Part shown: positions 60,100-64,000 of the stretch, one piece after another
Position numbering within the stretch: the stretch's first letter is position 1
Layout of the letters: each line of letters starts with the position of its first letter
Assembly: GCF_004752005.1 (NCBI RefSeq)
Contig: NZ_CP038493.1
Span: 2,256,302-2,320,301, forward strand
Origin: Thalassotalea sp. HSM 43
GTDB lineage: Bacteria > Pseudomonadota > Gammaproteobacteria > Enterobacterales > Alteromonadaceae
Reading direction: 5' to 3'
DNA length: 64,000 nucleotides
Notes under the pieces: model-generated
Databases searched by the model: none
What the model was told of the DNA's origin: nothing
Seen by the model: the letters and a program-made list of their open reading frames with translations, nothing else
Translations under genes and position numbers: made by a program

Positions 60100-60498
60100 A
60101 TGAAATACACAATGACTTTTGGCATGATCCACAAGGTCGCCAATAATATTGTTGAAATTTTTCTTGATGAAAACTCGGTCTTTAACATAGAAACCTACAA
60201 AGAATACCGTGAATTTATTAATCAAAATTTTGAAAAACCTTATGGGGTTATCATTAATCAGGTAAATAAAGCAGACTTTGATAACGATGTCGTTACTCCT
60301 ATCGTAAAAAATGAAGACGTTGCAGGCATTGCGTCTGTGACATACTGGCGCGAAAATGAGCGCGTCGCCAAACGATTTATCAAACTTGCCCAAGACCATC
60401 GATTACCCATGAGGACATTTTCCGCATACCAGTTAGGCCGTATGAAGGCTAGACAGTGGTTAGAGCTTGAAATTCTCAAGCAAAGTGAAAATGTTTAA
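60100..60498 (+). CDS. SpoIIAA/STAS-like protein, first of a tandem pair
   Basis: 132 aa, soluble, no signal peptide. Seen: MKYTMTFGMIHKVANNIVEI, then acidic FLDENSVFNIETYKEYREFIN, the core strand PYGVIINQVN, and C-terminal SAYQLGRMKARQWLE. The alternation of strands and helices and the strand-loop GVIIN fit the SpoIIAA/STAS-SEC14-like small-protein group found in marine bacteria and flavobacteria; I cannot assign a partner. The next gene is a diverged copy. It carries a weak GGGGCG ribosome site. Confidence 0.72.
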   Translation: MKYTMTFGMIHKVANNIVEIFLDENSVFNIETYKEYREFINQNFEKPYGVIINQVNKADFDNDVVTPIVKNEDVAGIASVTYWRENERVAKRFIKLAQDHRLPMRTFSAYQLGRMKARQWLELEILKQSENV

Positions 60499-60510
60499 CT
60501 GGGTAAGAAT

Positions 60511-60936
60511 ATGAAATTTCAAATGAGTTTTGGTGTGATCAACTTACTTAGTGATCACCTAGCAGAAGTAATTATCGACGAAGGCGTGGTAATGTCTTTG
60601 GAAATGTGCGAAGAGTATGATGAATTTCTCCTCAATATGTTCGACCGTCCATTTGGATTGTTGATCAATAAATTAAACAACTACTCGTACACCTTTGAAG
60701 CGAAATTGCATATCGCTTCATTAGAATTTTTAAAAGTTATGGCGGTTGTTCATTATAATTCAGAAGCACAGGCTCAGACCCAATCTGTTTTAGATCAGCG
60801 TCGACAAGATAACTGGCACCTGAAACAGTTTTGCGGCTTGCAGTTAGGTCGTGAACAGGCATTGCAGTGGTTAGAAACTGAGATGTCTAATATTCATGAC
60901 CAAAATCAATCGGCCAACAGTCTCGATTATGGTTAA
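60511..60936 (+). CDS. SpoIIAA/STAS-like protein, second of a tandem pair
   Basis: 141 aa. Aligns by eye along its length with the preceding protein: MKFQMSFGVINLLSDHLAEV, acidic DEGVVMSLEMCEEYDEFL, core PFGLLINKLN, LHIASLEFLKVMAVVHY, and C-terminal CGLQLGREQALQWLETEM. Conserved in both copies are FG-I, DE, EY-EF, P-G--IN, QLGR--A-QWLE. It follows after 12 bases, indicating a tandem duplication kept as an operon. Role unknown. Confidence 0.74.
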   Translation: MKFQMSFGVINLLSDHLAEVIIDEGVVMSLEMCEEYDEFLLNMFDRPFGLLINKLNNYSYTFEAKLHIASLEFLKVMAVVHYNSEAQAQTQSVLDQRRQDNWHLKQFCGLQLGREQALQWLETEMSNIHDQNQSANSLDYG

Positions 60937-60957: not shown

Positions 60958-61290
60958 ATGGATATGCAGCAGCTAAGTCAGTACTTACTGGCAAAACCGA
61001 AAACCACACTTTCATTTCCATTCAATCAAGATGTCCATGTGTACAAGGTGAACAATAAAATGTTCGCCTTGCTCACTTGGCGCAATGATTGCCTGATGAT
61101 TAACTTAAAGTGTGACTCGGATGAGTCACTCGCCCTACAAGACATCTTCAAGTCGATAACCTCTGGCTATCACATGGATAACTATCACTGTAACATTCCA
61201 CCTGTTTCCAAATCATTACAAACTAATCACAGTAGTAAGGTAGTATTCAGGCATGACACAGGTTTTCAGTTACAGACGCTTTTCAGCTAA
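60958..61290 (+). pseudogene. MmcQ/YjbR-family gene interrupted by the serine-recombinase element
   Basis: The first 79 codons match the MmcQ/YjbR (CyaY-like DNA-binding fold) family: YLLAKPKTTLSFPF, VHVYKVNNKMFALLTW, MINLKCDSDESLALQ and SGYHMDNYHCN. Family members are about 115-120 residues and continue after GYHMxxxHWN with a conserved NTV-LDGS-type end; here homology stops at about 61190. The frame then runs through unrelated sequence to a stop at 61288 inside the recombinase gene. The 3' part of the family domain is therefore missing, as expected if a mobile element integrated here. A shortened fusion protein could still be made. Confidence 0.78.
61180..61200. other. Putative left attachment junction (attL) of a serine-recombinase element
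   Basis: Position where MmcQ/YjbR homology ends (last clear codons about 61180-61192) and foreign sequence begins. The recombinase gene starts about 60 bases further right, the usual distance for large serine integrases next to an att site. The exact crossover dinucleotide cannot be set without the right end or an empty site. Confidence 0.5.
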
Positions 61291-62869
61291 ACATCAACAA
61301 CACGGTGACAGTATCCGCAGGCAAACAGACCTAGCGGTAGATTATTGCACCAAAAACAATCTAACCCTTTCAGAACTTAACTTTGAAGATTGTGGCCTTT
61401 CAGCGTTCACAGGTAGCCACCGAGCAGCGGACACTGGCCTTTCTCAATTCATCCAAGCTTGCGAATCAGGAACAATACCAAGAAATTCAATGCTGTTAGT
61501 AGAATCGCTTGACCGCATCAGTCGTGAGCAAGTATCCGTAGCACTTCAGCACTTCCTGTACCTAGTAAATGACTTAGGTATTACTGTTGTAACTTTGATG
61601 GACAATAAGGTTTACACAACCAAGCCAGATCTCACAGACCTAGTAGTTTCCCTAGCAATAATGGAACGCAGTAACAATGAGTCAGTTACCAAATCAAAGC
61701 GCCTAAGTGAAATACACGCTAAGAAAAGAGCTAACCCTTTAACCAGTGTCAAATCAAAGACTTGCCCTTGGTGGTTGCGGGTATCACCAACAGATAACAC
61801 TAAGTTTGAAGTAATCGAAGAAAAAGCAGAAATAGTTAGATTAATGTTTCAGCTATCAATTGACGGTGTCGGTATCAATCGCATCATTCAGCATTTAGAA
61901 AGCAAAGACATTAAGCCACCTCGTACTGAGAAGTGGGGTATTTCTACAGTTGGTAGCATCCTTAAATCAAAGCGTGTTCTAGGTGAATATCAGCCACACC
62001 ATTACGTTGACGGTAAGCGTGTTCCTATTGGTGAGCCAGTACAAAACTACTACATTCCAATCGTCAGTGAAAACGACTATCACCTAGCCCAATCTCGTAG
62101 AACTCAGCGAACTTTAAGAACCGTTGGTGGTGAACTTGTTAACACAGCTGGCGGTAGGACAGGGGACTCGTTTCCAAACTTGTTTACTAAAATAGCAAGG
62201 TGTTCAGAGTGTGGTGAAGCAATGCACTTTACAGATAAAACCAGATGGCAATACTTAACTTGTCGCAATCGTATCAAGCAGCTTTGTACAAACAAACCAA
62301 TACCTTACAAGCATATGGACTCGTTTCTAATTGAAGTATACCTAAGTCCACAGTACCTAGCACAGTGGTCTGAATACGCAGCTGCATCGACTAAACAAGT
62401 AACCGCTGGCGATAGTCTAGAAATACTAGAAAGCCGCTTACAATCAGCACAGCAAAGCCTTGAGTCGTTGATGACAGCAACAGCCAACTTTACCAATTCC
62501 GTGATCCTAAAGCAGATGCAAACTAGGTCGGAATCAATAGCCAATCTTGAACAAGAAATCGAGGAAAAGAAACAACAACAATCTGAGTCAGGCACAGACG
62601 TTTACTTTGACTTTGAAACTAATAAGCAACTAGTAGCCAACGCATTACAGCAAACCCTTTTCCCGTTGATGCAGTCCTTTAAAACTGAACCAGAAAAGCT
62701 AACCAAAGATGAAGTATACCGTGAACGAGTTAAGCTAAATCGTCAGCTGTCTAAAACGTTTCCAGACTTCCAAATGCTGTACAATACAGACGGCCTTTTC
62801 ATCACTACAAACGACAGTATCTACGAATTTAAAGATAAGCAGTGGATTGAGGTAGAAACACCCTCGTAA
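61253..62869 (+). CDS. Large serine recombinase (resolvase/invertase family, integrase-like)
   Basis: 538 aa. N-terminal catalytic domain: VFSYRRFSAKHQQHGDSIRRQ, with Ser11 as nucleophile and the downstream SIRRQ arginine, then ESLDRISREQV. The middle recombinase domain (GINRIIQHLESKDIKPPRTEKWGISTVGSILK) is followed by the zinc-ribbon ARCSECGEAMHF with a further Cys pair near TCRNRIKQLC, and a C-terminal coiled coil (about 380-445). This is the full architecture of a large serine integrase of phages and integrative elements. It is read away from the putative attL. Confidence 0.95.
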   Translation: MTQVFSYRRFSAKHQQHGDSIRRQTDLAVDYCTKNNLTLSELNFEDCGLSAFTGSHRAADTGLSQFIQACESGTIPRNSMLLVESLDRISREQVSVALQHFLYLVNDLGITVVTLMDNKVYTTKPDLTDLVVSLAIMERSNNESVTKSKRLSEIHAKKRANPLTSVKSKTCPWWLRVSPTDNTKFEVIEEKAEIVRLMFQLSIDGVGINRIIQHLESKDIKPPRTEKWGISTVGSILKSKRVLGEYQPHHYVDGKRVPIGEPVQNYYIPIVSENDYHLAQSRRTQRTLRTVGGELVNTAGGRTGDSFPNLFTKIARCSECGEAMHFTDKTRWQYLTCRNRIKQLCTNKPIPYKHMDSFLIEVYLSPQYLAQWSEYAAASTKQVTAGDSLEILESRLQSAQQSLESLMTATANFTNSVILKQMQTRSESIANLEQEIEEKKQQQSESGTDVYFDFETNKQLVANALQQTLFPLMQSFKTEPEKLTKDEVYRERVKLNRQLSKTFPDFQMLYNTDGLFITTNDSIYEFKDKQWIEVETPS

Positions 62870-62986: not shown

Positions 62987-63322
62987 TTACCCATCTTCAG
63001 CTTGCTTCAATTCATTCATAAATTTACCTAAAGAATGCAAACTTACCCACACTACAAAGAATGAAAGAGGTATAGCCCAGATATATTTGAAGTCTGGAAG
63101 AATCAAAACAAAAGCACCTGTAATGTCATAGCTCAGGTCGTTATGCCTAATCAACATATCCATTCCTACACAGACTCCATATGCACCAGTTAGCATAGAT
63201 AAAAACCCATTAAGTAGTTTTTCTAGGAATACACTGTAAGCTTTTGGTTTCTTGTATGCGAACGTAACAAGACCACCTAGAATGAATACTAATAGTGTAA
63301 CAATGCCTGAAAACAGACTCAT
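62987..63322 (-). CDS. Small multi-pass membrane protein in the element
   Basis: 111 aa with three or four hydrophobic helices (IVTLLVFILGGLVTFAY, LLNGFLSMLTGAYGVCVGMDML, ITGAFVLILPDF, IWAIPLSFFVVWVSLHSLG) and short charged ends. A GGGAAG ribosome site lies about 10 bases upstream of the ATG on the minus strand. No family recognised. It is oriented toward the recombinase gene, with about 117 non-coding bases between their 3' ends. Possible cargo of the element. Confidence 0.6.
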   Translation of the reverse strand: MSLFSGIVTLLVFILGGLVTFAYKKPKAYSVFLEKLLNGFLSMLTGAYGVCVGMDMLIRHNDLSYDITGAFVLILPDFKYIWAIPLSFFVVWVSLHSLGKFMNELKQAEDG

Positions 63323-63467: not shown

Positions 63468-64000
63468 TTACCATTGATATGGACTTTCTAAACTATCCAA
63501 CATCAGCGCAAACTCATCAGTGCTATAGAACTCAATACCCGTCTTGCTGGCGTGTTTAAACATACTAACCTTGTCTTTTGCTTTACTCTTTCTATGCTTA
63601 GCCATCAGCGGATCTACAATCATCACACGCGCCTTTCCAGTAGTAACTTGCTCATTAGTATCAGGACATACAAACGTATGTTCATTTAGGCTGTTGTCCA
63701 TTCCTATCATCTTACCCAGTGTATGATTCCAACCTAAATGCGCTCGGCTATTCTTGTTCCTTTTGGCTCTGGCATTTGGACAAACTAACTGGTCTGTTAA
63801 ATCATCATACCTCGCCTTTGCATTTTCAGCTGAAACCTTACCGCCTCTAATCCCTGTTGTCGTTAAGCAGTTACCATTTTTGTATTCCACTATCCACGTT
63901 TCATCATCAGTTCCGATCATCAAATCAGGTCTAACTTCATGAACCACGCCTTTGCAGTCCACACTTTCAAATCTATAGTTGGCTTTACGTGCGCCAATAC
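63468..64000 (-). CDS. Partial protein with PD-(D/E)xK nuclease-type motif
   Basis: The frame is open to the right edge, so the N-terminus is outside; at least 177 codons are seen. A GTG at 63962-63960 is in frame, but the reading continues upstream with coding-like residues GARKANYRFESV, so it is probably not the start. The segment VRPDLMIGTDDETWIVEYKNG gives the catalytic pattern Pro-Asp, then Glu-Tyr-Lys after 11 residues, typical of PD-(D/E)xK nucleases (restriction-like or TnsA-like). The remainder (ARVMIVDPLMAKHRKSK) is basic. No family assigned. It may be defence or transposition cargo. Confidence 0.6.
   Translation of the reverse strand, partial: IGARKANYRFESVDCKGVVHEVRPDLMIGTDDETWIVEYKNGNCLTTTGIRGGKVSAENAKARYDDLTDQLVCPNARAKRNKNSRAHLGWNHTLGKMIGMDNSLNEHTFVCPDTNEQVTTGKARVMIVDPLMAKHRKSKAKDKVSMFKHASKTGIEFYSTDEFALMLDSLESPYQW

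Follow-up and report, generated by a model that had tools for sequence, protein, structure and literature searches.

What interrupts the mmcQ/yjbR gene of Thalassotalea sp. HSM 43, and is the point of interruption peculiar to this genome? Near the right edge of the 64,000-nucleotide stretch analysed here (NZ_CP038493.1, positions 2,256,302 to 2,320,301; hereafter the window, within genome G000), mmcQ breaks off in front of a gene for a large serine recombinase (LSR), and a first-pass annotation had proposed that an LSR-bearing element had entered the gene. The break is a clean insertion, neither a frameshift nor an assembly fusion, and, beyond what that annotation had claimed, the same point of mmcQ is targeted repeatedly, by at least two further LSRs as well as by cassette arrays that usually keep mmcQ intact. 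We consider it probable that these are LSR-mobilised, mostly non-autonomous elements restoring mmcQ with their own 3′ end, a system resembling the staphylococcal cassette chromosome (SCC) and the enterococcal cassette chromosome (ECC) at a new target.

The head of the gene (60958 to 61181, plus strand) matches positions 1-66 of the 88 of PF04237 (YjbR; 4.5e-15), lies in an open reading frame (ORF) spanning 60958 to 61290, and is cut within the conserved YHM-D/N-K motif. Homology ends as abruptly as first described, although the last matching residues are YHMD and not YHMDNYHCN: the profile match ceases after SGYHMD, and the next codon is already part of the junction. The missing 3′ end, expected to the right of the window with an LDGS-type motif, was found 7,012 bp downstream on the same strand as the head (KKHWISIYLDGSVPEGEVHRLIDNSFNLVVSKMTKKEQKSILMHM; G000:C1:2324481-2324576, PF04237 positions 58-88). 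The predicted short core shared by both ends is TAA, present at 61179 to 61181 (attL, plus strand) and at window-equivalent 68191 to 68193 (attR, right of the window); the left junction reads CTATCACATGGATAA followed by CTATCAC, and the right junction GTTGCATTGATT followed by TAAGAAACATTGG. Because the cores lie 7,012 bp apart, the element spans 61182 to window-equivalent 68190, passing the right edge of the window, and measures 7.0 kb. The crossover TAA sits inside the Y-H-M-(N/D)-K codons of mmcQ, and joining the flanks across it yields a single open MmcQ frame that aligns with intact orthologues.

Comparison with related genomes lacking the element, as the first-pass annotation had suggested, revealed intact mmcQ at the same locus in same-genus genomes. 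Among 14 such genomes, 12 have a single near-full-length PF04237 match, G001 has none and G003 has pieces, and a head-only match without an element occurred in none of them. In locus L062, the 176- and 515-aa genes 3′ of intact mmcQ are those found 3′ of the displaced tail in G000. A simple frameshift is ruled out, since the tail lies 7 kb away and no remainder of MmcQ stands immediately downstream in another frame. The insertion cuts off 45 of the 119 MmcQ residues, and a PF04237 search of G000 (closed, 4.01 Mb, one contig) returned one head and one tail with no further match. With these residues gone and no second copy found, a loss of MmcQ function in this genome is plausible, judged from the sequence.

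The LSR gene (61253 to 62869, plus strand) adjoins the break as claimed, although it follows the core TAA by 72 bases and not by about 60. Between core and LSR start lies the left arm of the element (P′, 61182 to 61252, plus strand), through which the mmcQ frame continues to a stop at 61290. The 538-aa product has the make-up of an LSR, being longer than 400 aa and carrying Resolvase, Recombinase and zinc beta ribbon domains all over cut-off (PF00239, 2.5e-13; PF07508, 9.4e-16; PF13408, 2.2e-8), and matches the phrog_95 integrase at 8.5e-68. The element, likewise, has the anatomy of an LSR element, with attL and attR sharing a very short core and a target gene that is intact in relatives. We infer that the window LSR itself performed the insertion; it would recognise an attB inside mmcQ and insert the 7.0-kb element, splitting the gene.

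In two further genomes, an LSR element cuts mmcQ at the same codons as in the window. In G053, from another family of the same order, a 501-aa LSR that is 30% identical to the window LSR by alignment adjoins an mmcQ tail whose matching head lies 14 kb off; in G804, a closed genome of a Colwellia-type genus, a 681-aa LSR begins ~50 bp after the split head, and the LSR element stands in front of older cassettes. Both elements carry a complete mmcQ of a different type. In G851, an element with a complete mmcQ ~45 bp after the split head had no LSR detected by the model used. The G053 element also encodes, beside its LSR, a 193-aa tyrosine recombinase (L024 6735-7316; XerA/XerC-like, under the family cut-offs).

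Searching 394 genomes of the order gave LSR matches in 40, and among the 30 listed loci checked to ±1.5 kb, mmcQ pieces occurred only in the window and G053; within the family, 28 of 295 genomes gave a match, and only G804 had an mmcQ piece among 29 further loci checked. A class sample of 185 genomes, 15 of them with PF04237, contained no further clear split, the head in G648 being cut by a contig end, and the order-wide PF04237 search returned best matches only, so that partial matches there lay mostly outside its view. In the draft genome G846, mmcQ head and tail stand on different contigs (L219 6644-7277 and L220 9565-9698), possibly another split.

A PF04237 search of the family (177 genomes) gave, in some genomes, an intact mmcQ together with extra matches limited to positions ~58-88. 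In Colwellia and relatives, the underlying layout is an intact mmcQ with as many as five tail-only remnants behind it and cargo genes between them. With DNA models for the mmcQ head and tail built from 20 intact genes, we took a census of the best 80 of 590 confirmed mmcQ stretches, which were ranked against Colwellia-type queries and hence enriched for them, some having incomplete flanks. In these stretches, 26 extra tails fell in 13 loci, every one of them 3′ of an intact mmcQ and on the same strand, with no second head in any locus and 0 tail matches in reversed sequences. As a control, every other ORF of 100 aa or more had its last 137 bases searched for within the same loci. A second 3′ end turned up in the own locus for 13 of 74 mmcQ genes but for only 6 of 1,172 others. 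One of these six was itself an mmcQ missed by the motif, and the corrected figures are 14 of 75 against 5 of 1,171.

In a set of 18 arrays there are 41 remnants, with neighbouring remnants 0.1 to 7.1 kb apart. These counts leave out G444 (L072/L073), whose second tail is a contig-end overlap, and L118, a duplicate of G507 also omitted from the decay test described below; L221, L222 and L224 (G838, G842 and G850) were taken as repeats of L107, L109 and L112 and not recounted. Of 39 genomes from the G804 genus, 14 have one or more tail-only PF04237 matches as read from the match rows, and in G837, G840 and G846 a tail-only match stands on a contig without intact mmcQ. A serine-recombinase fragment (125 aa, 5.1e-9) lies ~4.2 kb past a group of three mmcQ tails in G840 (L226 15536-15913).

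An ordinary LSR hit in the window mmcQ could have nothing to do with the remnants in Colwellia, if these arose by tandem duplication of the 3′ end of mmcQ, in keeping with the finding of just three LSR splits and with a window genome that has no array. All three LSRs, however, hit the exact codon at which the remnants start, one of them in an element lying in front of older cassettes (G804), and the arms of the cassettes resemble those of the LSR elements, as set out below; duplication, moreover, would not yield common foreign arms or shared cassettes. We therefore regard this explanation as very improbable. The anatomy of these loci shows that the attB of the window LSR element also serves at least two further LSR elements, divergent from it, and many elements without a recombinase.

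Where a remnant has kept its start, that start is the crossover, and in many cases one of a small number of short arms stands before it. The units so delimited recur in different genomes and positions. A ParDE cassette, in first position in G384 and inside an array in G003, aligns at 80% over 747 bp, the alignment beginning at ATGAATAAA, at the crossover; for a 608-aa cassette of L084 and L109, the alignment (82.7% over 2,291 bp) stops only a few bases from the crossover. L109 also has, in first place, a 512-aa cassette that is the third visible one in L025, a contig beginning inside the array; the two copies align at 75.7% over 1,966 bp, from 24 bases into the tail and across the next junction. 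A four-gene cassette, first in L069 and second in L102, aligns at 82% over 4.9 kb, from inside the tail to short of the junction, and the L111/L123 pair gave an internal match only. Between L109 and G507, two cassettes stand in opposite order. The loci present a constant crossover, a target that is split or restored, recurring arms, cassettes shared and reordered between genomes, and three LSR elements. In G003 (L025 1-1447), two tandem ParDE cassettes share 91-96% identity in their gene parts but just 75% in their mmcQ tails, as would be seen if different tails had become attached to similar cassettes.

Could homologous recombination have produced this pattern, if single LSR insertions were followed by exchange with mmcQ-plus-neighbour DNA that repaired the gene and spread the cargo? 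The histories of head and tail are decoupled in intact array genes, where head and tail identities are uncorrelated (rho 0.08; 13 genes, 78 pairs), compared with rho 0.43 in 15 array-less Pseudoalteromonas genes (105 pairs), a result that this exchange, like any other, could yield. By contrast, the sharp boundaries of the ParDE and 608-aa cassette homologies at the crossover, the single codon at which the start-keeping remnants all begin, many with a common arm, and the lack of any remnant upstream or on the other strand in the best 80 of 590 loci all speak against it, and we judge homologous recombination quite unlikely as the origin of the arrays. Homologous spread of arrays that already exist is likely to occur as well.

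No LSR was found among 94 cargo ORFs of the arrays, and no recombinase was among the 25 commonest of 92 Pfam families represented in 77 cargo proteins; it is the arms that link the cassettes to the LSR elements. Three classes of cassette arm were distinguished, exemplified by AGTAGCGCTAACGTTTATATG (class 1), ATAGGTTGATTGTTGCACATG (class 2) and TGGGTATRATATATCTTGAT (class 3). Each LSR element has a P arm that matches cassettes of one class. For G804 this is class 3, with a best score that 0 of 1000 shuffles reach; for G053 it is class 1 (1 of 1000); and for the window element it is class 2 (12 of 1000 on local score and 7 of 1000 when compared in register). The window and G053 arms have local scores of 24 and 29 at cassettes, but of no more than 17 and 18 at 44 further ATGAWTAAR-type sites of these loci. 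Among cassette-arm pairs (n = 465) a score of at least 18 was found in 16.1%, compared with 0.8% of shuffled pairs. In addition, the arms of the G053, G804 and G851 elements form inverted repeats (dyads) with scores reached by 0, 2 and 0 of 2000 shuffles, respectively, the G851 dyad, which involves a class 1 arm, covering 25 columns with 24 matches and a single gap; such dyad symmetry is typical of serine-integrase attP sites. Because the P arms of cassettes resemble those of LSR elements, and because dyad attP-type arms occur in two LSR elements and in one element without a detected recombinase, the cassettes were most likely moved in trans by LSRs.

The arms and junctions also bear on an alternative in which a tyrosine recombinase of integrase or Xer type, encoded elsewhere, moves the cassettes in the style of tRNA islands and the LSR elements merely use the same target. 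Tyrosine recombinases are present in all seven array genomes searched; the cassette arm often has ATGAATAAA in common with the mmcQ head, which leaves room for a longer overlap at cassettes; and restoration of the 3′ end of a target is the usual design of tyrosine-integrase islands, according to the accessible part of PMC4383910. However, the arrays of seven genomes contain no tyrosine-recombinase match, identity across the junction extends over just 3-4 bp where the LSR elements of the window and G053 are inserted, and the cassette arms match LSR-element arms, three of the elements having dyad attP arms. On balance, a tyrosine recombinase as the mover seems unlikely.

How might LSRs have assembled arrays in which mmcQ is intact? 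Cassette structure, like the recurrence and reordering of cassettes, can be read directly from the loci, and events would have followed this order: a cassette, opening at the crossover with an mmcQ 3′ end of its own, carrying one to several cargo genes and ending in the short P arm, would insert so that host head and cassette tail form an intact mmcQ, followed by the cargo and then by P and the displaced old tail, and repeated insertions would give rise to arrays. Two routes could lead to such restored arrays, and we consider them about equally likely. The first, modelled on SCC, would be a single reaction between attB and a circle bearing P plus tail, giving attB-like and attR-like products. 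In the second, an element with P, P′ and a complete replacement mmcQ, the layout of the G053, G804 and G851 elements, would integrate, after which attL would recombine with the attB of the replacement copy to join the host head to the element tail; in G804, this step would delete the LSR between head and replacement copy and would thereby explain cassettes that lack an LSR. The window element shows neither rescue route: a PF04237 genome search found no complete mmcQ within it, and its mmcQ stays unrestored.

Several observations weigh against mobilisation by LSRs. No LSR was found beside the scanned LSR-less arrays, and cassette movement was not seen. A Recombinase-domain match was lacking in six of 12 genomes searched: G003, which is 78% complete, and five genomes with arrays or remnants whose completeness is 99% or more. 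The arrays of these genomes are therefore either relics or dependent on an enzyme from outside. To our knowledge, recombination between attB and P plus tail is not a textbook LSR reaction. The arms of some remnants fit none of the three classes; the arm match to cassettes is weakest for the window element, whose own arms form no significant dyad (score reached by 578 of 2000 shuffles); and cassette arms are not matched by the reverse-complemented P′ arm of the window element (163 of 1000) or of G804 (509 of 1000), and only weakly by that of G053 (21 of 1000). Finally, decay with distance in the arrays was not significant: of 42 pairs, 27 had the better score in the nearer remnant (permutation p 0.08).

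LSR-mobilised elements at mmcQ invite comparison with integrons and CALINs (clusters of attC sites lacking integron-integrases), which form arrays of small cassettes with same-orientation sites, include toxin-antitoxin cassettes and have cassettes without a recombinase. The mmcQ arrays likewise consist of small same-orientation cassettes, toxin-antitoxin cassettes among them, with no recombinase inside. They differ from integrons in two ways: the arrays of the seven genomes searched contain no tyrosine-recombinase match, and the platform is a protein-coding gene that the first cassette completes. We tentatively raise the further possibility, which we favour less, that mmcQ might act as an integron-like gene-capture platform based on serine recombination, the crossover corresponding to attI and P plus tail to attC. 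The last-arrived cassette would then supply the final 45 codons of a working MmcQ, so that selection on the host gene would hold the array in frame, and at least three converged LSR lineages would mobilise matching cassette classes in trans.

The remaining genes of the window element include two on the minus strand without family matches, encoding a 111-aa protein that is hydrophobic by eye (62987 to 63322) and a 185-aa protein (63468 to 64000, with its start at window-equivalent 64025), as well as genes for proteins of 351 aa (weak endonuclease VII similarity), 83 aa (helix-turn-helix-like) and 195 aa. PADLOC matched no defence model to four cargo proteins of this element. A second, small serine recombinase of invertase type (191 aa, phrog_125, 3e-57) is encoded within it at L023 7267-7842, equivalent to window positions 65965-66540, and a second LSR region occurs elsewhere in the same genome (G000:C1:2883523-2885710). 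Viral contigs contained no close relatives of the window or G053 LSRs, and the matches of these two in phage and plasmid records were all below 60% identity. The G804 LSR element carries a Septu-like pair (L211 13011-15358; PtuA 2.1e-63, PtuB 8.3e-99 by PADLOC), and defence genes therefore travel to the mmcQ site.

Upstream of mmcQ, the host flank of the window encodes proteins of 132 aa (60100 to 60498) and 141 aa (60511 to 60936), both on the plus strand. Homologues of the former lie 5′ of mmcQ in several same-genus loci, and a homologue of the latter lies directly 5′ of intact mmcQ; both are present in L026, L058, L059, L061 and L062, one in L060 and L064, and neither was seen 5′ of mmcQ in L063. 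The two proteins (60100-60936) are related to each other and have no Pfam family.

Which known systems does the mmcQ system resemble? In SCC, including SCCmec, and in ECC, LSRs act at the 3′ end of rlmH, the gene stays intact, repeats partition the region, and a ccr-less element, multiple attR and dyad-symmetric att sites are described, in the parts of the sources available (PMC4723332, PMC6222049). To that extent, the shared features are an LSR at the 3′ part of a conserved protein gene, junction repeats, recombinase-less elements and multiple attR; an intact target and tandem elements hold for the Colwellia-type arrays, not for the window element. The target, by contrast, is the PF04237 gene mmcQ/yjbR and not rlmH, and the hosts are Colwellia-type Gammaproteobacteria. 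Since the crossover lies 45 codons before the mmcQ stop, each cassette has a coding tail of ~135 bp, diverging between cassettes, compared with a repeat of 15-50 bp. The window and G053 LSRs reach 21.7-46.0 bits on NCBIfam CcrA/CcrB models, far short of the cut-offs of 700-900, and no Ccr model matches the G804 LSR at 0.001. In its workings the mmcQ system is like SCC and ECC, but it belongs to neither.

Islander-type tRNA-gene islands also restore a disrupted target, with the displaced fragment marking the other end, as the available part of PMC4383910 sets out, and mmcQ cassettes share both traits. They differ in their protein-gene target, serine-type arms and repeated integrase-less cassettes, and an LSR, not a tyrosine integrase, stands at the end of the three split-mmcQ elements, with none in the cassettes. 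In Streptococcus and Actinobacillus, MmcQ/YjbR-EVE genes border an integration hotspot with toxin-antitoxin and defence genes, for which a transposon-type mechanism was suggested (PMC7641849, in part); these genes are EVE fusions, and that part of the source reports no gene-tail repeats, crossover site or LSR. Distantly related LSRs sharing one target gene cluster are a described pattern, in a source whose main text, in the portion available, does not mention MmcQ (PMC10083194). We found no description of the mmcQ crossover or cassette site in the open literature searched, which excluded most subscription papers and all supplements.

The mmcQ system offers a testable origin for the hotspots beside MmcQ/YjbR-EVE genes and a rule by which similar systems might be sought at other genes, namely tail-only remnants of a target gene on the same strand behind a recurring arm. 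Its attB lies in strongly conserved codons of a widespread bacterial family, and the three divergent LSRs, with their inferable arms, are candidate integration tools. If the reading of LSR-mobilised, mostly non-autonomous elements is true, Colwellia-type Gammaproteobacteria would gain a counterpart of the staphylococcal cassette chromosome, with mmcQ as a hotspot that captures and exchanges adaptive genes, including toxin-antitoxin pairs, response regulators, metabolic genes and, in one LSR element, a Septu-like defence pair.
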